IMG/VR virus record: IMGVR_UViG_3300042384_000682
Span: 1 to 41,095 of that record
Origin: a virus
Strand: one strand, 5' to 3'
Length of the DNA stretch: 41,095 nucleotides
Below the pieces are notes generated by a model, which saw nothing but the letters and a program-made list of their open reading frames with translations, ran no database searches and had not been told where the DNA came from. Below, in pieces: positions 24,598 through 40,420 of this stretch. Within the stretch, counting starts at the first letter, position 1; every line of letters begins with the position of its first letter. Both the position numbers and the translations under genes were made by a program.

Positions 24598-27500
24598 TTA
24601 TTTATTTATCAATCGATTTATTGTTATTTGTTGTTCATCAACTATCTGCTTCAATTCTTTAACACCCTGTATCAATACAGCTGTCAATTTACTATAATTT
24701 ATACCAGATATATTACCCAACTCATCATAACTAACAAATTCAGGATATATCTTCACAACCTCTTCAGCTATCAAACCAATACTAAATTCATTGTTGTTCT
24801 TATACCTAAATGTCACCGGATTCAATAACACAATCTTGTCCAATTGCGGCGGCAATAAAGGCATAATATCCGTTTTAGTATTTTCACTAGACGTTTCTAT
24901 CAATGTAGTAGCACTAACAGTTCCAACAACTGTTAATGTAGTACCATCCACACTTAAAAAATTAACACTCTGTAACGTAGTAAGACCAGTAGTTTTTACC
25001 AAATAATTAGGCTGATCAGTAAAACTACCACCACTAATTCCACTGGTACCACTAGGAGCACTAATACCACTAGTGCCACTCGTACCACTGCTACCACTAG
25101 TTCCACTTATACCACTACTTCCACTACTAGCACTAGCACCTCCACCAGCACTTACACCACTTGTTCCACTTGTACCAACAGTACCACTACTACCACTCGT
25201 TCCGCTTGTGCCACTCGTACCACTGCTACCACTTGTTCCACTGGTTCCATTTCGACCACTTGTGCCACTGCTACCACTTGTTCCGCTCGTTCCACTTGTG
25301 CCACTTGTTCCGTTTGTTCCACTTGTTCCGTTTTGACCGCTACTACCACTTGTGCCGCTCGTTCCACTACTACCACTTGTACCACTACTACCACTTGTGG
25401 CACTATTACCGCTGCTACCACTATCACGACTAAATCCGCTTGTACCACTACTTCCACTTGTACCACTGGTTCCGCTTGTACCACTTGTACCACTGGTTCC
25501 ATTTCGACCACTCGTACCACTTGTACCACTTGTACCACTGCTACCACTACTACCACTACTACCACTGGTTCCGCTTGTGCCACTAGTACCGCTTGTTCCG
25601 TTTTGACCGCTGCTACCACTTGTTCCACTTGTACCGCTACTACCACTTGTACCACTACTACCACTTGTGGCACAAGTGGTAGTGCTACCACTATCACGAC
25701 TAAATCCGCTTGTACCACTGCTACCACTAGTACCACTTGTTCCGCTTGTTCCGCTTGTGCCACTTGTACCACTGGTTCCATTTCTACCACTGCTACCACT
25801 AATACCACTGCTACCACTGCTACCACTAGTTCCACTTGTTCCGCTAGTGCCACTCGTTCCATTTGTTCCGCTTGTTCCGTTTTGACCACTGCTACCACTT
25901 GTTCCACTTGTACCGCTACTACCACTTGTACCACTACTACCACTTGTGGCACTATTACCACTGCTACCACTATCACGACTAAATCCGCTTGTACCACTGC
26001 TACCACTAGTACCACTGGTACCACTTGTTCCGCTTGTTCCACTGGTGCCATTTGATCCGCTTATACCACTTGTACCACTAGTACCATTAGTACCACTGCT
26101 ACCACTTGATCCACTTGTTCCACTTGTGCCACTAGTACCATTTGTACCATTTGACCCACTTATACCACTTGTTCCACTCGTTCCACTGGTACCATTTGAT
26201 CCACTCGTACCACTAGTGCCACTGGTACCACTGCTCCCACTTGATCCACTTGTTCCGCTTGTGCCACTAGTACCATTTGACCCACTTGATCCACTTGTAC
26301 CACTTGATCCACTTGACCCACTTGATCCACTTGACCCACTTGACCCACTTGATCCACTTGATCCACTTACACCAGACGATCCGCTACTACCACTAGTACC
26401 GCTTGTGCCACTAGTACCATTTGACCCACTTATACCACTTGTGCCACTTGATCCATTACTGCCGCTTGTTCCACTTGTTCCGCTTGTGCCACTAGTACCA
26501 CTTGATCCGCTTGTACCACTTGTGCCACTGCTACCACTGGTACCATTAGATCCACTTGTACCGCTTGTGCCACTAGTACCATTTGTACCACTTGTACCGT
26601 TAGATCCACTTGATCCGCTAGTACCAGACGATCCGCTACTACCACTTGTACCGTTTGATCCGCTTATACCACTTGTGCCACTTGTACCACTGGTGCCGTT
26701 TGTTCCACTGCTACCACTTATACCAGACGATCCGCTACTACCACTTGTACCGTTGGATCCACTTGTGCCACTTGTACCGTTAGATCCGCTTGTACCGTTA
26801 GATCCGCTTGTACCACTTGATCCACTTGATCCGCTTGTGCCACTTGATCCACTTGATCCACTTGACCCACTGGTGCCGTTCGATCCGCTTGTACCACTTG
26901 TGCCACTTGATCCACTTGACCCACTTATACCAGACGATCCGCTACTACCACTAGTACCGCTTGTACCACTAGTACCACTAGTACCACTAGTACCACTTGT
27001 ACCGTTAGATCCACTTGTGCCACTAGTACCACTGCTTCCACTTGTGCCACTGCTTCCATTTGATCCACTTGTACCACTACTACCACTTGTACCACTTGTA
27101 CCACTACTGCCACTTGTACCGTTGGATCCACTTGTGCCACTAGTACCACTGCTTCCACTTGATCCACTTGATTCACTTACGCCACTGGTGCCGCTTGTTC
27201 CATTTGTACCACTGCTGCCACTTATACCAGAAGATCCACTACTACCACTTGTGCCACTTGTGCCATTAGATCCACTTGTACCGCTTGATCCATTTGACCC
27301 ACTTGTACCGCTTGATCCACTTGACCCACTTGTACCATTTGATCCACTTGACCCACTTGTACCACTTGTGCCGCTTGTACCACTTGTGCCATTAGATCCA
27401 CTTGTTCCACTAGTACCGCTTGTGCCATTAGATCCGCTCGTACCACTAGTACCACTAGTGCCGCTTGTGCCGCTTGTGCCATTTGATCCACTAGTACCAC

Positions 27501-30500
27501 TTGATCCACTACTACCACTTGTACCGCTTGTGCCACTAGTACCGCTTGTACCACTTGTGCCACTAGTACCGCTTGTACCACTTGTGCCGTTTGATCCGCT
27601 TGTACCACTTGTGCCGTTTGATCCGCTTGTACCACTTGTGCCGTTTGATCCGCTTGTTCCACTTATACCAGATGATCCACTAGTACCACTTGTGCCACTA
27701 GTACCACTTGTGCCACTAGTACCACTAGTACCGCTTGTTCCACTACTACCGCTTGTACCGTTTGACCCACTTGTTCCACTTGTACCATTAGATCCGCTTG
27801 TTCCAGATGATCCACTTGTTCCACTAGTACCACTTGTTCCACTACTACCAGATGTACCACTTGTACCGTTAGTACCGTTAGTACCATTAGTACCATTTGA
27901 TCCGCTTGTGCCATTTGATCCACTACTACCACTTGTTCCACTACTACCGCTTGTGCCACTCGTTCCACTACTACCACTTATACCAGAAGATCCACTGCTA
28001 CCACTTGTACCGCTTGTGCCATTAGATCCACTTGTTCCAGATGATCCACTACTACCGCTTGTGCCACTACTACCGCTTGTACCATTAGATCCACTTGTAC
28101 CACTTGTGCCACTTGTGCCACTGGTACCATTTGATCCACTACTACCGCTTGTACCATTAGATCCGCTTGTACCAGATGATCCACTACTACCGCTTGATCC
28201 GCTTGTACCAGATGATCCACTTGATCCACTTAATCCACTTGAACCACTTGAACCACTAGTACCGTTTGTACCGCTTGTACCACTAGTACCGTTTGATCCA
28301 CTAGTACCACTACTGCCACTTGATCCGCTTGAACCACTTGAACCACTTGATCCACTTGATCCACTTGTACCGCTAGTACCACTTGATCCGCTTGTACCAC
28401 TTGTGCCACTGCTACCACTGGTACCGTTAGATCCGCTAGTACCACTTGTTCCATTAGATCCACTTGTACCGGATGATCCACTTGATCCGCTAGTACCAGA
28501 CGATCCACTTGATCCGCTAGTACCGGACGATCCACTTGTTCCATTCGTTCCATTGGATCCGCTGGTACCAGATGATCCACTTGATCCGCTAGTACCAGAT
28601 GATCCACTTGAACCGCTTAATCCACTTGATCCACTTGATCCACTCGATCCACTAGTACCGCTTGTACCACTAGTACCGCTTGTACCACTAGTACCACTTG
28701 TGCCATTAGATCCACTTGTGCCGTTTGATCCGCTAGTACCACTTGTGCCATTTGATCCACTTGTTCCACTACTACCACTTGTACCACTTGTTCCACTACT
28801 ACCACTTGTACCGCTTGTACCACTCGTTCCACTTGTACCATTTGATCCACTTGTGCCATTTGTGCCGTTAGATCCGCTTGTACCATTTGATCCACTAGTA
28901 CCACTTGATCCACTTGATCCACTTGTGCCGCTAGTACCACTTGTGCCGCTAGTACCACTTGTGCCGCTAGTACCACTTGTGCCGTTTGTGCCATTAGATC
29001 CACTTGTTCCGCTACTGCCAGACGATCCGCTAGTACCAGATGAACCACTTGAACCACTTAACCCACTTGAACCACTTGAACCACTTGATCCGCTAGTACC
29101 GCTTGTACCACTTGTTCCGCTAGTACCACTGGTACCATTTGTACCACTGGTACCATTTGTTCCATTAGATCCACTTGATCCACTTGACCCACTTGACCCA
29201 CTTGACCCACTTGATCCACTTGTACCACTGGTACCACTTGTACCGCTAGTGCCGCTTGTACCACTAGTGCCATTTGTACCATTAGTGCCGTTTGTACCAT
29301 TTGATCCACTTGACCCACTTGATCCACTTGATCCACTAGTACCGCTTGTACCGCTTGTACCACTTGTACCACTTGTTCCGCTTGTACCACTAGTACCGCT
29401 TGTACCACTTGTGCCGCTTGTACCACTGGTGCCATTTGTCCCATTACTACCGGATGATCCACTATTACCAGATGATCCACTTGTACCGCTTGTACCACTT
29501 GTACCACTTGTTCCACTAGTACCACTTGTGCCACTGGTGCCATTTGTGCCGCTTGTGCCGTTTGAACCACTGCTTCCACTTATACCAGATGTGCCACTTG
29601 TGCCACTAGATCCGCTCGATCCACTTGACCCACTGGTACCACTCGTACCACTAGTACCACTGGTGCCACTAGATCCGCTTGTACCACTTGTACCACTTGA
29701 TCCACTTGTACCACTTGATCCGCTGCTACCACTTGTACCACTTGATCCATTTGTACCACTTGTGCCACTAGATCCGCTTGTACCACTGGTGCCACTGCTA
29801 CCACTAGTACCGTTTGTGCCACTTGTACCACTGGTACCACTTGTACCACTAGTACCACTTGTTCCGCTACTACCACTTGTTCCGCTGCTTCCACTGGTGC
29901 CTGATCTACCGCTTGATCCTCTTGTGCCACTTGTGCCGGTTGTACCGCTTGTAGTACTTGTACCACTTGATCCGCTTGATCCATCTAATAAACCACTACT
30001 ACCGCTTGTACCACTGCTTCCATTTTCTCCACTAGTTCCACTGGTTCCTATATCGCCACTTTGACCGCTACTACCACCCTCACCATTTGTACCGCTTGTG
30101 CCTTGACTACCACTGGTACCTGAAGATGTGCTTGTACCGCTTGTGCCGCTTGTATTGCTTGTTCCGCTTGATCCAGCTGATCCTTTTTCTCCGCTACTAC
30201 CACTACTACCACTGGTGCCTGTGCCTGAAGTACCACTGGTGCTGATATTACCGCTTACACCTATGATGTATCCGCATGCATCAAACGAAAAAGTTATGGT
30301 TGCGGTATTATCATTATTGAGTACTATTGTTTCTGGTATTAATTGATTGAAATTCTCGTCGTATGTTTGAATTAATACTAGATCTGAGTTTAAATTATGA
30401 TCAAATACCCAAGTTTTTGATTTTTGATCGCATGGTATTTGTTTAGTAGCAACATTGTTGAAAAACTGAGAACTGGTTCGACAATAAATAATTTTACGTA

Positions 30501-30633
30501 ATTCGTCGATTATTTTAAGAAACAGCTCTGTGGTAGGATCTTTAAAAGTCGCTGTTAATTTTTTATAATCATACAGAGCATTATCCAATTTTATTGGAGA
30601 AACCTCGCATGGATCTTTCTTTAATGTTGACAT
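24598..30633 (-). CDS. Giant collagen-like tail fibre with C-terminal S74 intramolecular chaperone
   Basis: The 2011-aa open frame has three parts. Residues 1-130 form an N-terminal domain (WVFDHNLNSDLVLIQTYDEN, AtITFSFDACGYIIGVSG) of the type that attaches fibres to the virion. Residues about 131-1868 are an almost uninterrupted Gly-X-Y array (about 570 triplets), mainly GTS, GSS, GTN and GSN with no proline. Residues 1869-2011 hold a short stem and a peptidase S74-type chaperone: ETSSENTKTDI with the Ser/Lys cleavage site, LNPVTFRYK, FSIGLIAEEV, YPEFV, INYSKLTAVLIQGVKEL. In this family the chaperone trimerises the fibre and then cuts itself off. The ATG has TATTTATA with a 6-nt spacing. The array is intact despite heavy internal repetition, which argues for selection. 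Confidence 0.85.
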   Translation of the reverse strand: MSTLKKDPCEVSPIKLDNALYDYKKLTATFKDPTTELFLKIIDELRKIIYCRTSSQFFNNVATKQIPCDQKSKTWVFDHNLNSDLVLIQTYDENFNQLIPETIVLNNDNTATITFSFDACGYIIGVSGNISTSGTSGTGTSGSSGSSGEKGSAGSSGTSNTSGTSGTSTSSGTSGSQGTSGTNGEGGSSGQSGDIGTSGTSGENGSSGTSGSSGLLDGSSGSSGTSTTSGTTGTSGTRGSSGRSGTSGSSGTSGSSGTSGTSGTSGTSGTSGTNGTSGSSGTSGTSGSSGTSGTNGSSGTSGSSGSSGTSGSSGTSGTSGSSGTSGTSGTSGTSGSSGSSGSSGTSGTSGISGSSGSNGTSGTNGTSGTSGTSGTSGTSGTSGTSGSSGNSGSSGSNGTNGTSGTSGTSGTSGTSGTSGTSGTSGTSGTSGTSGSSGSSGSSGSNGTNGTNGTNGTSGTSGTSGTSGTSGTSGSSGSSGSSGSSGSSGSNGTNGTSGTNGTSGTSGTSGTSGTSGSSGSSGSSGLSGSSGSSGTSGSSGSSGTSGSNGTNGTSGTSGTSGTSGTSGTSGTSGSSGSSGTSGSNGTSGSNGTNGTSGSNGTSGTSGTSGTSGSSGTSGTSGSSGTSGSNGTSGTSGSNGTSGSNGTSGTSGTSGTSGTSGTSGSSGSSGSSGLSGSSGSSGTSGSSGSSGTSGSNGTNGTSGSSGTSGSSGSSGTSGSSGSSGTSGSNGTSGTSGSNGTSGSSGTSGTSGSSGTSGTSGSSGSSGSSGSSGSSGSSGTSGSNGTSGTSGTNGTSGSSGSSGLSGSSGSSGTSGSSGSSGSSGTSGSNGTSGSSGSNGTSGTSGTSGTSGSNGTSGSSGTSGSSGSSGTSGSNGTSGTSGSSGSSGISGSSGTSGTSGSSGTSGSSGSNGTSGSNGTNGTNGTNGTSGTSGSSGTSGTSGTSGSSGTSGSNGTSGTSGSNGTSGSSGTSGTSGTSGTSGTSGTSGTSGSSGISGTSGSNGTSGTSGSNGTSGTSGSNGTSGTSGTSGTSGTSGTSGTSGTSGSSGSSGTSGSNGTSGTSGTSGTSGTSGSNGTSGTSGTSGSNGTSGTSGTSGTSGSSGSNGTSGSSGSSGTSGSNGSSGTSGSNGTSGTSGSSGSSGISGSSGTNGTSGTSGVSESSGSSGSSGTSGTSGSNGTSGSSGTSGTSGSSGTSGSNGSSGTSGSSGTSGTSGSNGTSGTSGTSGTSGTSGTSGSSGSSGISGSSGSSGTSGTSGSNGTSGSSGSSGSSGTSGSSGSSGTSGSNGTSGSNGTSGTSGSNGTSGSSGSSGISGSSGTNGTSGTSGTSGISGSNGTSGSSGSSGTSGSSGSNGTSGTNGTSGTSGTSGSNGTSGSSGTSGTSGSSGTSGTSGTSGTSGSNGSSGTSGISGSNGTSGTSGTSGSSGSSGVSGSSGSSGSSGSSGSSGSSGSSGTSGSSGSNGTSGTSGTSGSSGSSGTSGTSGTSGSNGTSGTSGTSGISGSNGTNGTSGTSGTSGSSGSSGTNGTSGTSGISGSNGTSGTSGTSGTSGTSGSSGTSGFSRDSGSSGNSATSGSSGTSGSSGTSGTSGSSGQNGTSGTNGTSGTSGTSGTSGSSGSSGISGSSGRNGTSGTSGTSGTSGTSGTSGSSGTSGFSRDSGSTTTCATSGSSGTSGSSGTSGTSGSSGQNGTSGTSGTSGTSGSSGSSGSSGTSGTSGTSGRNGTSGTSGTSGTSGTSGSSGTSGFSRDSGSSGNSATSGSSGTSGSSGTSGTSGSSGQNGTSGTNGTSGTSGTSGTSGSSGTSGRNGTSGTSGSSGTSGTSGTSGSSGTVGTSGTSGVSAGGGASASSGSSGISGTSGSSGTSGTSGISAPSGTSGISGGSFTDQPNYLVKTTGLTTLQSVNFLSVDGTTLTVVGTVSATTLIETSSENTKTDIMPLLPPQLDKIVLLNPVTFRYKNNNEFSIGLIAEEVVKIYPEFVSYDELGNISGINYSKLTAVLIQGVKELKQIVDEQQITINRLINK
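25170..26050 (-). repeat. Higher-order tandem repeat of 270-279 bp inside the fibre array
   Basis: A block containing GFSRDSG, ATSGSSGTSG and GQNGTSG occurs three times. The same anchor (ctatcacgac on the plus strand) is at 25421, 25691 and 25970. Confidence 0.75.
25660..25680. repeat. Perfect 21-bp palindrome within the middle higher-order repeat copy
   Basis: ACCACTTGTG-G-CACAAGTGGT. The two sister copies read GTGGCACTATTACC here, so the palindrome replaced ordinary repeat sequence and changed SSGNSATSG to STTTCATSG. Confidence 0.8.
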
Positions 30634-36190: not shown

Positions 36191-37156
36191 ATGAACTTTA
36201 AAAAACAACTGTTTTACACCATCGTAATTTTAATACTAACCGGTTGTATTTCGTCTGAAGTTAGACCGGCGAAGCAAGTTACAACTGCACAAGACGCTGT
36301 TGCTAAACAAGAAGCCAAAGTAGATAATACGATGGTAGAGTTGGAAAAAGTAGAAAAAGGCAAACGTGTACAAGCATCGTCTTTGTCTATAGGTATTCAA
36401 CACTCTTTAAGTCAAGTAACAAACCCGTCAGTACAAGTAGATACTGCTAAATCACTCAATGAACGTGTAATTTCTATAGTTGGATCACCACACATAGATG
36501 AAATTAAACGTATAAAAGCTACCGTTGATTTATTAAACAGTCAAGTTGCTGAGGAAAGAAAAAAGGGTGATCAATTACTATCACAACGTGACGAAATCAT
36601 AAACAAATTGCAAAAAGAAAAGTCTGCTTTGAAAGAAAAGTATGACGATGAATTATGGCAAATGACTGATAAAGCAAAAGAAATTGCAAAAGAAGCTGAT
36701 CAAAGCAAGGCTACTTTGGATGCTATGAGTGGTATGTTTGGTCTTAATGCTGTATTTTGGGGTTTAAAAAAGTTCTTTGTTAGTGCAATGACCGCAATTA
36801 TCATATTTGTTGTGGTATTTGTTATATTAAGAATATTAGCAACAGTACATCCAGCAGCTGGTGCAGCATTTAGTATATTTAATATGATTGGTTCTGGATT
36901 ACTAAGTTTGGTAAAAGCATTAACTCCACATGCATTTGAATTGGCTAACTTCGCTTCAAAAGACAAAGTTGATGAATTCAAGTCTCCACTTGTTAAAATA
37001 GTTGATGTAATTCAAGAACTAAAAGAAAAACAAAAAGAATCTCCTGATAGAGTATATCCATTGACTGAAGTATTGAAAAGATTTGATAAAGAAATGGATA
37101 GTTCCGAAAAAGAATTGATTGATGATATTCTAAAAGAACAAAAGTGGATTAAATAA
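36191..37156 (+). CDS. Coiled-coil lipoprotein with transmembrane segments
   Basis: The 321-aa protein has a type II signal peptide (Lys-rich start, hydrophobic core, lipobox LTGC with Cys19). Residues about 30-185 form a charged helical coiled coil. About 195-217 (VSAMTAIIIFVVVFVILRIL) and 222-244 (AAGAAFSIFNMIGSGLLSLV) are two membrane-spanning stretches, followed by a charged tail to 321. A lipid anchor plus a membrane hairpin is unusual and suggests a protein spanning envelope layers. It is the first gene of the plus-strand operon, 45 nt before the MscS-like gene. It could be an envelope-modifying, superinfection-exclusion or lysis-related protein; none is shown by sequence. Topology is uncertain because a lipobox and later transmembrane helices rarely occur together. 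Confidence 0.75.
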   Translation: MNFKKQLFYTIVILILTGCISSEVRPAKQVTTAQDAVAKQEAKVDNTMVELEKVEKGKRVQASSLSIGIQHSLSQVTNPSVQVDTAKSLNERVISIVGSPHIDEIKRIKATVDLLNSQVAEERKKGDQLLSQRDEIINKLQKEKSALKEKYDDELWQMTDKAKEIAKEADQSKATLDAMSGMFGLNAVFWGLKKFFVSAMTAIIIFVVVFVILRILATVHPAAGAAFSIFNMIGSGLLSLVKALTPHAFELANFASKDKVDEFKSPLVKIVDVIQELKEKQKESPDRVYPLTEVLKRFDKEMDSSEKELIDDILKEQKWIK

Positions 37157-37161
37157 ATTAA

Positions 37162-37173
37162 TATTTATATTTA
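37162..37173 (+). promoter_or_regulatory. Two adjacent TATTTA motifs upstream of the MscS-like gene
   Basis: TATTTA at 37162-37167 and 37168-37173, 28 nt or more before ATG 37202. They may provide internal transcription; spacing is longer than at other sites. Confidence 0.35.
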
Positions 37174-37201
37174 TTATATAATTGTTTTGGATTGTTAACA
37201 A

Positions 37202-37609
37202 ATGTTATGTGTTAATAAACTAAAGACGATTATGGATACAAATACAGCACACGTAATATCTCAACAGGTACTAGAATCAACCGCACAAGATATGACAGGC
37301 AAATATGTCTGGATGTTCGTAGCGGGATTAGTAATTCTAATGTTTAAATCAAGCATTGAAAAACTTGCCGCGGCACTGTTTATGTTTATTGGGTCCGATT
37401 ACAAAGAAGATGATGTTGTATATATTGATGGCAAACCCGGCAGAATTGTTCGTGTGGGACTTACAAAAACTGTATTTTTCATATATGACGTAGTAGATGG
37501 TAAGGTTGTAGGCGGAAGTAAATTAGTTATCCAAAATGAAAGACTAGCTGGTCTAAACATAGAAAAACCACTACCTCAATTGGATTTAAGCCGTTTCAAA
37601 AAAGACTAA
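37202..37609 (+). CDS. Small MscS-like membrane protein (TM plus beta domain)
   Basis: The 135-aa protein (125 aa if started at ATG 37232) has a hydrophobic span at about 36-49 and a second at 54-64. A short soluble domain follows that matches the MscS beta domain: DYKEDDVVYIDGKPGRIVRVGLTKT (about 66-90), then DGKVVGGSKLVIQNERLAGLNI (about 99-120). Compare MscS, where the beta domain follows pore helix TM3 and ends GKIIVIPNGKIIAGNI. The large cytoplasmic alpha/beta cage and TM1-TM2 of full MscS are missing, so this is a reduced form that might oligomerise into a pore or only scaffold. It sits 15 nt before the cyclase gene, which suggests a linked function. No cNMP-binding motif is visible. 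Confidence 0.7.
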   Translation: MLCVNKLKTIMDTNTAHVISQQVLESTAQDMTGKYVWMFVAGLVILMFKSSIEKLAAALFMFIGSDYKEDDVVYIDGKPGRIVRVGLTKTVFFIYDVVDGKVVGGSKLVIQNERLAGLNIEKPLPQLDLSRFKKD

Positions 37610-37624
37610 TTTACTAATTAAACT

Positions 37625-39400
37625 ATGGCTATTAACATTTTTACCCACATCAAACGTGGGTTATACGATAACGTCTACAACTGTATCGAAAAAGAAAAAG
37701 TAGATGTCAATCAAAGAGACGATGATACAGGCAATCCACCATTGGTTGTTGCTGTAGAAGAAAATCAAGTGGAAATCGTAAAACTACTGTTAAATCACGG
37801 TGCAGATCCCAACTGTAAAGATTGGACCAGTAAAAATACAGCACTGGATGTAGCTGAACAAAAAGGTTTTAAAAATATCGCAGAAATACTACAACAAAGA
37901 GGTGCAAAATACAGTAGCGGTAGTAGTTTCCATTTAGCCGCAAAAAATGGTGATATCGTTTCTATTGAAGAAATGTTAGACAAGGGATTTGATATCAATG
38001 AAGTTGACGCTGGCAAAGGTTGGACCGCACTACATTATGCAGTAAATTACGGACAAAAACACTTGGTTGAATATCTAATTGTAAGAGGAGCTGATGTTAA
38101 CAAGAAAGATTTCTTGGGTAAAAATAATCCTATTGACGTACTATCCAATACCAATAGAGGTGACATTGTTAAGTTATTGAATAAGTACGGTGCTAAATCC
38201 GCAGGAGGTGTTAGTATTCATTTCTGCGCAGAAACAGGAGATTTTGAAGGTGTACAATCGTTCTTTGATAAAGATGGTAAAATCAATGGCAGAGATGAAA
38301 AGAATGGATGGATGCCACTACATTATGCCGTTAACGCTAACGATGTTGATATGGTGGAATTTTTGGTACATTTGGGTGCGAATGTTAACGGTGCAGATTT
38401 CAAAGGTGAAATTGCTCCGTTGGATTTGGCATTTAAGACGGGTAATGTAGAAATGCAAACATATCTGCAATCCAAAGGTGCTCAAAGAAAAAAGAAACAC
38501 GATATTGGTGGTGGTGGAAAAGATGTAAACATATACATCACAGATGAAGTTAAAAAGCAAATTGCATTGTTTGTTGAAAAACGTAATCGTGAAGAAGCTG
38601 CAATAAAGAAACACGAAGAAGAACAAGCATCAAAAGAACCAAAGAAAAAAGATGCACCAGCTAAGAAAATTAACTGGAAAGATTTCTTGAAACTTAAAGA
38701 TATTCCAGTGGTAGAAAAGAAAGAAGAAAAGAAGGTAGAAGTTGTTAAACCCGTCAAACAAGTTGTCAAGAAAGTTGAACAAGTTGATGTAGAAGTCAAA
38801 TCTGGTAGATTGCAATTGGACGTAGAACAAGAAGGTTATATATTCTTTATGGATATTGTTGCTTATAGTAAGAAAACAACAGATGAACAAAAGAAGGCTT
38901 GTAAAGATTTGGGTGCATTGGTTAAGTCTACAATGCAATACAAAACAGCTAATGCGCTTGAAAAGTTAATTATATTACCTACTGGTGACGGTATGGTATT
39001 GGGATTCTTTACTTATTTGGAAGATGCAATGAATTGTGCAGTTACTATAGCTAAAGCAGTAAAGGATAGACCGGATTTACAAATGAGAATGGGTGTACAT
39101 TGTGGACCTGTAATACCAATGGAAGATATTAATGGCAATCTCAATATCAGTGGTGATGGTATCAACTATGCTCAAAGAGTAATGGATGCAGGTGAAAGCA
39201 ATCATTTGTTGGTTAGTTCAGCAGTAATGTTAAAATATGATAGACCACCATATGTATTAGTAAATGACTTGGGGGATGTGGTTGTAAAACACGGTGTAGT
39301 TATGCATTTGTATAGTTTACACGGTAGTGATTTTGGTAACAAATCATTTCCATCTAGTAGAGTAAAGAAAGCAGAACCAACAACAAATAAACCAGTATGA
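37625..39400 (+). CDS. Ankyrin-repeat class III nucleotidyl cyclase
   Basis: The protein is 591 aa. Residues 1-288 contain about eight ankyrin repeats in three similar ~95-residue blocks (for example GWTALHYAVNYGQKHLVEYL and GWMPLHYAVNANDVDMVEFL). Residues 289-398 are a Lys/Glu-rich linker, probably helical. Residues 400-565 are a class III cyclase domain: GYIFFMDIVAYS with metal-binding Asp410, ILPTGDGMVLGFF with metal-binding Asp455, MRMGVHCGPV, and SGDGINYAQRVMDAG with catalytic Asn514 and Arg518. All catalytic residues are present. The adenine-selecting Lys of adenylate cyclases appears to be Leu, so the base used cannot be predicted. The domain makes cyclic nucleotides by homodimerising. 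It overlaps the next ORF by 4 nt (ATGA) and follows the MscS-like gene. Cyclases in phage genomes are rare. Confidence 0.85.
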   Translation: MAINIFTHIKRGLYDNVYNCIEKEKVDVNQRDDDTGNPPLVVAVEENQVEIVKLLLNHGADPNCKDWTSKNTALDVAEQKGFKNIAEILQQRGAKYSSGSSFHLAAKNGDIVSIEEMLDKGFDINEVDAGKGWTALHYAVNYGQKHLVEYLIVRGADVNKKDFLGKNNPIDVLSNTNRGDIVKLLNKYGAKSAGGVSIHFCAETGDFEGVQSFFDKDGKINGRDEKNGWMPLHYAVNANDVDMVEFLVHLGANVNGADFKGEIAPLDLAFKTGNVEMQTYLQSKGAQRKKKHDIGGGGKDVNIYITDEVKKQIALFVEKRNREEAAIKKHEEEQASKEPKKKDAPAKKINWKDFLKLKDIPVVEKKEEKKVEVVKPVKQVVKKVEQVDVEVKSGRLQLDVEQEGYIFFMDIVAYSKKTTDEQKKACKDLGALVKSTMQYKTANALEKLIILPTGDGMVLGFFTYLEDAMNCAVTIAKAVKDRPDLQMRMGVHCGPVIPMEDINGNLNISGDGINYAQRVMDAGESNHLLVSSAVMLKYDRPPYVLVNDLGDVVVKHGVVMHLYSLHGSDFGNKSFPSSRVKKAEPTTNKPV

Positions 39401-39609
39401 GAACAATGCCTTTAGTAAGACAATATCATCCAAGTATTGTTAATACAGACTTGGATGTATACAAAATAAAGGATAGAGTTATGGCAGCTCCTATAAATAA
39501 TCACCCTGATCCATTTCAAGTAATAGATAGACTTGGTATCAATAAGATTAATGCTACCAAAATTAGAACTGTAGTATATAATTCCAAAGGTCTTTTTTAT
39601 ATAATATAA
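39397..39609 (+). CDS. Small uncharacterised 70-aa protein
   Basis: It starts at the ATGA overlap with the cyclase stop, so it is probably translationally coupled to it. The sequence (VRQYHPSIVNTDLDVYKIKD, APINNHPDPFQVIDRLGIN) is polar with no membrane segment or known motif. It ends 37 nt before the Mom-like gene. It may be a small partner of the cyclase or unrelated; I do not recognise it. Confidence 0.5.
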   Translation: MRTMPLVRQYHPSIVNTDLDVYKIKDRVMAAPINNHPDPFQVIDRLGINKINATKIRTVVYNSKGLFYII

Positions 39610-39646: not shown

Positions 39647-40420
39647 ATGTCGGAGTATTTTGACCCCACATTAATTTACATCAAAAGCATCAATAAGAAT
39701 GTTGCAAAAACTCTTATTGAAAAGAATCATTATACACACAAGTGGTCTCTTTGTACTGTAGCTTATGGAGTATACTATAAAGAATATGTAGAGAGTACAT
39801 TCTTTGGTGGTTTTAACGAACGATTAATAGGTGTATTAGTATATGGAAACGCCGTGGGTAGAAATGCTAGTACCAGTATCTCTTCACTACTTACTAATAA
39901 CAATGTGTTAGAATTAACACGACTGTGGATTGCAGATGGTTATGGTAAAAATATAGAAAGTTATTGTATAGCTGAAAGCTTTAGATTATTAAATACTGAA
40001 TATCCCCACATCAAATGTATTCTCAGTTATGCGGATAGTGAAGCTGGACACGCAGGCACAATCTATCAAGCAACTGGCTTTCTATATCAAGGCGATAACT
40101 ATGTAGATATCGCTATAATGCCTAACTATAGTGTTAGTTTAGTTGGTCCTCCTAACTATGATTGGATACACAGCAGAAGTGTATATTCAAGATGGAAAAC
40201 ACACAGCGTAGATAAACTAAAAGAACGTATTGGTAGAACATTCTGGCGCAAACGAGAAAGTGGTAAACATCGTTATATCAAGTTTATCAGTAACAAAATA
40301 GAAAATAAAAAGTTGACTAAATCTCTTAAACATAAAGTTCTACCTTACCCCAAAGATACTTCGTTCAAAGAAGAAGTACAAGAAATAATTGTAGATTCTA
40401 CTAACGAATTTTTTGAATAA
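39647..40420 (+). CDS. Mom-like DNA modification protein (GNAT-related)
   Basis: The 257-aa protein carries the hallmark segment of Mu Mom relatives: LELTRLWIADGYGKNIESYCIAESFRLL, then KCILSYADSEAGHAGTIYQATGFLYQG (about residues 82-150), and an N-terminal IKSINKNVAKTLIEKNHY..., YGVYY, RLIGVLVYGNAVG. Mu Mom is a GNAT-fold enzyme that modifies adenine to protect phage DNA from restriction. The C-terminal basic tail (SGKHRYIKFISNKIENKKLTKSLKHKVLPYPK) would bind nucleic acid. Here the gene is monocistronic, with its own sigma70-like promoter and a terminator 10 nt after the stop, so it is likely expressed independently of the cyclase operon. The actual modification is not known. Confidence 0.72.
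   Translation: MSEYFDPTLIYIKSINKNVAKTLIEKNHYTHKWSLCTVAYGVYYKEYVESTFFGGFNERLIGVLVYGNAVGRNASTSISSLLTNNNVLELTRLWIADGYGKNIESYCIAESFRLLNTEYPHIKCILSYADSEAGHAGTIYQATGFLYQGDNYVDIAIMPNYSVSLVGPPNYDWIHSRSVYSRWKTHSVDKLKERIGRTFWRKRESGKHRYIKFISNKIENKKLTKSLKHKVLPYPKDTSFKEEVQEIIVDSTNEFFE

Follow-up and report, generated by a model that had tools for sequence, protein, structure and literature searches.

Phages have been described as destroying or soaking up the cyclic-nucleotide signals of their hosts (PMC9117128, PMC12043709). A pelagiphage adenylate cyclase was reported in a cluster with FecR, histidine kinase and curli genes (PMC9599517), and in phage Melnitz the curli pore was proposed to time lysis, in a paper whose main text is without the word "cyclase" (PMC9004378). 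Mechanosensitive-channel-like genes are on record for three large DNA viruses, and one of these genes is MscS-like, according to a survey of viral transport genes (PMC6163359). The locus analyzed here lies close to the right end of IMGVR_UViG_3300042384_000682, a 41,095-base record of an uncultured phage (this whole stretch is called the window), and encodes on the plus strand a minimal MscS-like protein (mini-MscS) followed after 15 bases by an ankyrin-repeat class III nucleotidyl cyclase (Ank-cyclase). A reading made earlier from the sequence alone was not aware of any published phage system that combines these genes. The exact set was indeed not encountered in a literature search covering phage ankyrin cyclases, phage MscS, phage adenylate cyclases and Pycsar, but a phage adenylate cyclase together with pore genes had been published (PMC9599517).

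The same sequence-only reading had described a tight run of four plus-strand genes at 36191-39609. The run was confirmed, with genes at 36191-37156, 37202-37609, 37625-39400 and 39397-39609, the last two overlapping by 4 bases. The run comprises a lipoprotein, mini-MscS (75 bases from the lipoprotein to its Met codon), Ank-cyclase and an open reading frame (ORF) of 70 amino acids (aa), and is followed by a Mom-type gene. The features are as follows:

37232..37609, plus strand: minimal MscS-like protein, 125 aa, in an ORF open from 37202; PF00924 below cut-off, relatives, AlphaFold2 (AF2), Foldseek
37625..39400, plus strand: ankyrin-repeat class III nucleotidyl cyclase, 591 aa; PF12796 and PF00211 above cut-off, AF2 mean pLDDT (predicted local distance difference test) 78.9
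37625..38500, plus strand: ankyrin array, residues 1-292; PF12796, AF2
38828..39325, plus strand: cyclase domain, about residues 402-567; Pfam and PDB profile, limits from AF2 strands and helices
38852..38854, plus strand: Asp410, first metal ligand; invariant in 24 distinct proteins
38987..38989, plus strand: Asp455, second metal ligand, within LPTGDGM; invariant in 24 distinct proteins
39164..39166, plus strand: Asn514, transition-state residue; invariant in 24 distinct proteins
39176..39178, plus strand: Arg518, transition-state residue; invariant in 24 distinct proteins
39397..39609, plus strand: 70-aa ORF overlapping the cyclase stop; without family match
36191..37156, plus strand: lipoprotein, 321 aa, a separable neighbour; helical or coiled-coil look by eye, strong span at 195-213, spanin-like layout
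39647..40420, plus strand: Mom-type DNA modification protein, a neighbour; PF25680 at 1.2e-44

Ank-cyclase and mini-MscS

The catalytic part of Ank-cyclase scored 23.2 bits against PF00211, above the Pfam cut-off of 21.9, which establishes homology of this domain; the ankyrin array matched PF12796 at 2.6e-38. In the AF2 model the ankyrin array is followed by a long helix and then by the alternating strands and helices of a cyclase-like domain. Matches to solved cyclases in the PDB were weak (best E 5.6e-4 with the single sequence, 1.5e-5 with a profile). All NCBIfam matches fell far below the cut-offs, those of the cyclase being ankyrin-driven (e.g. MzaA, 85.7 against 800 bits), and a structure search of the model against viral proteins gave an output dominated by ankyrin proteins.

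Complete Ank-cyclases from 57 contigs, the window protein included, were reduced to 24 distinct proteins and aligned. Asp410, Asp455, Asn514 and Arg518 were invariant throughout. The enzyme had been credited with all catalytic residues; this was correct, numbering included, for the metal and transition-state positions, but not for the base-selecting ones, which are L451 and N507 in all 24 proteins. Canonically, ATP is selected by Lys paired with Asp or Thr, and GTP by Glu paired with Cys. L451/N507 departs from this strict adenylate/guanylate cyclase signature, whereas the membrane-bound cyclase that some of these phages also carry has Lys and Thr at these positions. The mismatch concerns the choice of substrate and leaves class III membership untouched; since the positions are non-canonical, the cyclic product is not predictable from sequence. 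By its conserved residues, Ank-cyclase has an intact class III metal and transition-state site. Ratios of non-synonymous to synonymous substitution (dN/dS) for the MscS, ankyrin and cyclase parts were 0.035-0.146 in 11 of 18 comparisons, the remaining seven being saturated, so these coding regions are judged to be under purifying selection and not to have arisen by chance.

By sequence the phage enzyme belongs to a bacterial cyclase subfamily. A profile of the phage cyclases recovered bacterial cyclases with the LPTGDGM and GINxAQRVMD motifs, E reaching down to 1.9e-46; of 288 genomes sampled from a single phylum, only 4 were matched at E<=1e-20. At least 120 stretches in the bacterial genome collection carry GINxAQRVMD, among the matches listed mainly from Verrucomicrobiota, Acidobacteriota and Armatimonadota. 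Relatives were taken as the best 80 of 116, 93 and 173 found, and counts of bacterial relatives and of distant MscS carriers are thus lower bounds. The catalytic subfamily is shared, but the fusion partners differ: seven of nine bacterial members scanned are fusions, with NB-ARC/STAND and TPR, TPR, protein kinase, TIR and AAA_35, PASTA or PEGA, and none of the nine has ankyrin repeats. A small profile built from the ankyrin repeats of the phage proteins was run against 100 loci (99 bacterial ones plus the phage contig L360), 99 of which hold 113 cyclase ORFs; only the L360 ORF matched. In eight loci of Verrucomicrobiota-type genomes (L394, L397, L400, L403, L414, L425, L438 and L444) the GINxAQRVMD motif was seen two to three times within a few kb.

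L360 is 8.8 kb long and differs from the window in its gene content, which includes terminase-like and primase/helicase-like genes by eye. Its protein of 483 aa has the same ankyrin-cyclase layout as that of the window, and the metal and transition-state residues are kept in it and in four aligned bacterial relatives. Neither MscS nor the lipoprotein was matched in L360 at E<=1, and matches of its protein in named phages were confined to the ankyrin part. A viral pattern scan for the cyclase gave no outsider other than L360, and named phages contained no relative of the lipoprotein, mini-MscS or the catalytic part of Ank-cyclase at E<=0.01. A tree of 86 rows grouped L360 with the phage Ank-cyclases in a single clade (100/100) on a long stem, with a bootstrap that was not fully settled and a long L360 branch. 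Cyclase domains truncated by contig ends were omitted, and L337, an integrase-like false positive, was excluded.

The length of mini-MscS was set at 125 aa because its relatives begin at the Met at 37232. The window protein scored 16.3 bits against PF00924, under the cut-off of 20.2, while all 11 aligned relatives matched the family at E<=1 (best 2.5e-4). The AF2 model has low confidence (pLDDT 62.7) and places one predicted long helix ahead of strands. With this model, ranks 1-28 of a Foldseek search of the PDB were MscS-type channels or entries titled merely "membrane protein"; the top match had an E of 2.1e-3 and a probability of 1.00, none reached E<=0.001, and query template-modelling (TM) scores were 0.39-0.50. 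The description as a reduced MscS-like protein draws its support from the relatives and the fold comparison, and not from the Pfam score in the window. As modelled, the protein would be an MscS cut down to the beta domain and a helix like the third transmembrane one (TM3), which lines the pore; unlike MscS-family channels, which have three membrane helices and a C-terminal vestibule, 125 aa leave no room for TM1-2 or the vestibule. Membrane insertion is graded as likely at most, because no 19-residue Kyte-Doolittle window reached 1.6. No cyclic-nucleotide-binding domain was found in the protein.

Co-occurrence of the pair and comparison with known systems

A total of 103 contigs was gathered, 83 with the lipoprotein; the 64 of these with at least 4 kb downstream were counted, genes being sought within 7 kb after the lipoprotein. 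Of these contigs, 54 had MscS as well as a cyclase and 10 had neither, and one was never seen without the other. The cyclase partner in the 54 was Ank-cyclase (47), Ank-cyclase plus a membrane-bound class III cyclase (5) or the membrane cyclase alone (2). When lipoproteins were clustered at 90% identity (16 clusters), 8 clusters had both genes, 7 had neither and 1 was mixed. Nine of the ten contigs with neither gene lacked MscS and cyclase across the whole record examined. In the tenth, 32224_001922, MscS and Ank-cyclase stand at the other end of the contig together with the 70-aa ORF and an HD-like protein, and in 32324_000717 the pair is present with no lipoprotein in the preceding 6 kb. Six further contigs have lipoprotein and MscS with no cyclase, and all of them end in or just after MscS or inside the ankyrin part. 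In 32313_001124 (L191), which was not long enough to be counted, the lipoprotein is directly followed by mom. Because of this both-or-neither pattern and the pair at a second locus, MscS and cyclase are taken to behave as a unit, with the lipoprotein outside it. The proposal that a phage-borne signalling enzyme is genetically coupled to a membrane-type protein was accordingly supported, while inclusion of the lipoprotein as an obligate part was ruled out by the contigs with neither gene (10 of 64) and by the two in which the pair stands elsewhere without it. The 70-aa ORF was present in 56 of 68 contigs with Ank-cyclase, some of which stop short of its position, and in none of 35 others.

The pair resembles Pycsar, in which PycC acts with PycTM or PycTIR, in combining a class III cyclase with a membrane protein. 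It differs in that no effector with a cyclic-nucleotide-binding domain was found: PF00027 reached its cut-off in none of 27 records and then in none of five (four of them new, the window included), 31 records in all, which are possibly fragments. Two matches below threshold were obtained, L238 in G003 and L237 in G011; the first was rejected as a receptor, being by eye a cupin-like ORF, also seen in L196. The base-selecting residues differ as well from the sets given for PycC in PMC11224242 (BcPycC Y50/D94/R97, EaPycC F100/R142/Q144, AnPycC F60/K104/F109); Ank-cyclase has F408, L451, T453 and V458 (I in some) at these positions and, as far as those sets go, shares with EaPycC and AnPycC one residue, a Phe located two positions ahead of the first metal Asp. 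PADLOC matched the cyclase by ankyrin models only; whether PADLOC includes a pyrimidine-cyclase model was not checked. On present evidence membership of Pycsar was rejected, and the suggestion of a Pycsar-like cyclase/effector pair was not supported, since no cyclic-nucleotide-binding domain reached cut-off. A receptor would be either the host's own or of a kind not known so far.

As in the curli (type VIII secretion, T8SS) clusters described for pelagiphages and methylophages (PMC9599517, PMC9004378), a class III cyclase stands here with a gene for a membrane-type protein (the pore genes CsgF/CsgG in those clusters). Both phages scanned, HTVC008M and Melnitz, carry a CHASE2-PF00211 cyclase, and in the isolated pelagi- and methylophage loci L566 and L567 the CHASE2-cyclase lies at the end of the curli-pore cluster, beside tail genes. 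The window differs in having an ankyrin and not a CHASE2 cyclase, and in place of CsgG a mini-MscS without a named-phage match at E<=0.01. A CsgG-type pore was rejected for the records examined, CsgG being found in none of 29, which are possibly fragments.

Lysis genes, cassettes and other neighbours

Mini-MscS also occurs in more distant phages, with 61-68% identity (tblastn). In all 15 distant contigs tested a holin-type gene diverges from it at some 37-41 bases, assigned in L142 by PF23987 (9.4e-13), and in 14 of the 15 a lysozyme/LysM protein lies behind the holin-type gene (PF00959 and PF01476 in L142). Phages of the main group have a holin (phrog_2359, 1.4e-11) in 4 of 30 records, always downstream of the lipoprotein; in G003 it sits between MscS and Ank-cyclase, and in L195 a lysozyme-like protein (PF00959 below cut-off) follows about 3 kb past the holin. 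In some relatives the cluster around Ank-cyclase includes, by sequence, a holin as well as genes for lysozyme-like and spanin-like proteins. Adjoining the holin at L196:7355-7975, with relatives in L194, L195 and L203, is a 206-aa protein with a chemoreceptor-sensor look by eye and no Pfam match. At L199:9195-9794 a PAS protein (PF13426, 1.3e-7) with a hydrophobic N-terminus directly follows Ank-cyclase.

The lipoprotein had been described as having two membrane spans. Its signal stretch and one strong span (195-213 of 321) were confirmed, but a Kyte-Doolittle scan gave no second span. A lipobox-like tetrapeptide ending at the first Cys was found in 26 of 30 distinct lipoproteins. The layout, a lipobox-like signal and a membrane span in one protein, resembles that of unimolecular spanins such as T1 gp11, which is predicted to be mainly beta (PMC6139136). 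Unlike in gp11 as described there, the span is internal, with a tail of about 108 residues beyond it, and the part before the span looks helical by eye.

In some contigs (L166:9258-12128, L092, L120 and L121) a cassette follows MscS or Ank-cyclase, consisting of a 215-aa protein without family match and with an outer-membrane look by eye, a membrane-sensor class III cyclase (PF00211, 2.8e-27) and an HD-like protein with YH[ND]..H and HD motifs. The HD-like protein was present in 11 of 103 contigs, each with a cyclase, and in 4 of 25 whole records. It matched PF01966 at 0.0075, below cut-off; two of its relatives had no Pfam match at E<=0.01, and its profile found no phosphodiesterase in the PDB. 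That it is a cyclic-nucleotide hydrolase or phosphodiesterase is a guess.

The window is probably a fragment of a larger phage genome, because relatives reach 131-230 kb. Among ten of its proteins scanned were T4-type gene products, namely a UvsX-like recombinase, baseplate hub and head-tail adaptor, encoded on the minus strand. A 773-aa protein of the window had no relative among named phages. At 24598-30633 an ORF of 2011 aa lies opposite an open frame of 1372 aa on the complementary strand, which suggests a repetitive protein. The coding-strand element TATTTATA stands 4 or 6 bases upstream of the start codon in 7 of the 25 ORFs that begin with ATG and encode 100 aa or more, with starts at 36191 (plus strand) and 40823, 33897, 30633, 17149, 13724 and 6206 (minus strand); one of the seven has a second copy 16 bases upstream of its ATG. 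On both strands of the window TATAAATA was observed 20 times against 7.7 expected. A start-site or promoter signal is possible; its sense is the reverse of that of the T4 late box.

Proposed role and rival explanations

The pair may tentatively be read, from gene content and conservation, as a phage second-messenger module in which a cyclic nucleotide would act together with a membrane or lysis cluster. The ankyrin array would dock the enzyme on a phage or host protein partner and so set when the cyclase is active. The nucleotide is proposed to act on host receptors because none was found in the phage records; direct gating of mini-MscS by it is unlikely, since that protein has no known binding domain. 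Mini-MscS would form or modulate a small inner-membrane pore during infection, and the two together could adjust both the permeability of the membrane and the state of the host ahead of lysis, making lysis timing responsive to a signal. A bolder version, in which a minimal pore derived from MscS and an ankyrin sensor-cyclase make up a signal-to-membrane unit in the lysis locus, swappable with the cassette of membrane-sensor cyclase and HD hydrolase, and tune permeabilization to an internal or external cue, is rather unlikely.

Several observations weigh against the tentative module. The window and its long relatives G004-G006 are without a phrog_2359-family holin or PF00959 lysozyme. Many of the 64 contigs come from near-identical phages, so the co-occurrence represents few independent events, and 32224_001922, one of the ten contigs scored as having neither gene, has the pair at its other end. 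MscS and Ank-cyclase are also separable: a cyclase in relatives without the membrane genes had been named at the outset as grounds for abandoning the coupling, and this was seen in part, in L360, while distant phages have MscS without cyclase. Across 27 whole records PF00211 was found in 14 and MscS in 18; the distant group accounts for the four that have MscS but no PF00211. Finally, with its non-canonical base-selecting residues the activity of Ank-cyclase with any nucleoside triphosphate (NTP) is a prediction, and mini-MscS has just a short hydrophobic stretch and a low-confidence model (62.7).

The separability also feeds the possibility, tentative too and given the same weight as the module, that two independent cargo genes meet at a hotspot, the cyclase reprogramming the host via host receptors and mini-MscS on its own protecting from osmotic rupture or tuning lysis. 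The region downstream of the lipoprotein is highly variable, each gene was found alone elsewhere, and CHASE2-cyclases are cargo of pelagi- and methylophages; set against this are the both-or-neither pattern, without exception in 64 contigs, and the joint presence at a second locus. That same unity of cyclase and membrane-type protein would suit a phage-carried defence or superinfection exclusion of Pycsar-like kind, the ankyrin array sensing a rival phage, the cyclase signalling and the membrane protein killing or blocking, and some bacterial cyclase relatives are fused to NB-ARC/STAND, TIR with AAA, or kinase, which are conflict-type architectures. With no cyclic-nucleotide-binding domain above cut-off in the 31 records, ankyrin models alone matched by PADLOC and no toxic effector domain matched, such a defence is improbable. 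It is likewise improbable that the fold is catalytically dead or not a nucleotide enzyme and serves to bind or sequester host signals: L451 and N507 and the weak match to solved cyclases would fit, but all 24 proteins have the same four residues at the metal and transition-state positions, as do L360 and the four bacterial relatives.

If phages of this group make a cyclic nucleotide, using their own lineage of ankyrin enzymes in linkage with a membrane-type protein, this would reverse the known pattern of signal destruction and sequestration. Mini-MscS is a candidate minimal pore of the MscS fold and, if the link to lysis is true, the locus would offer a testable case of lysis timing by a second messenger.

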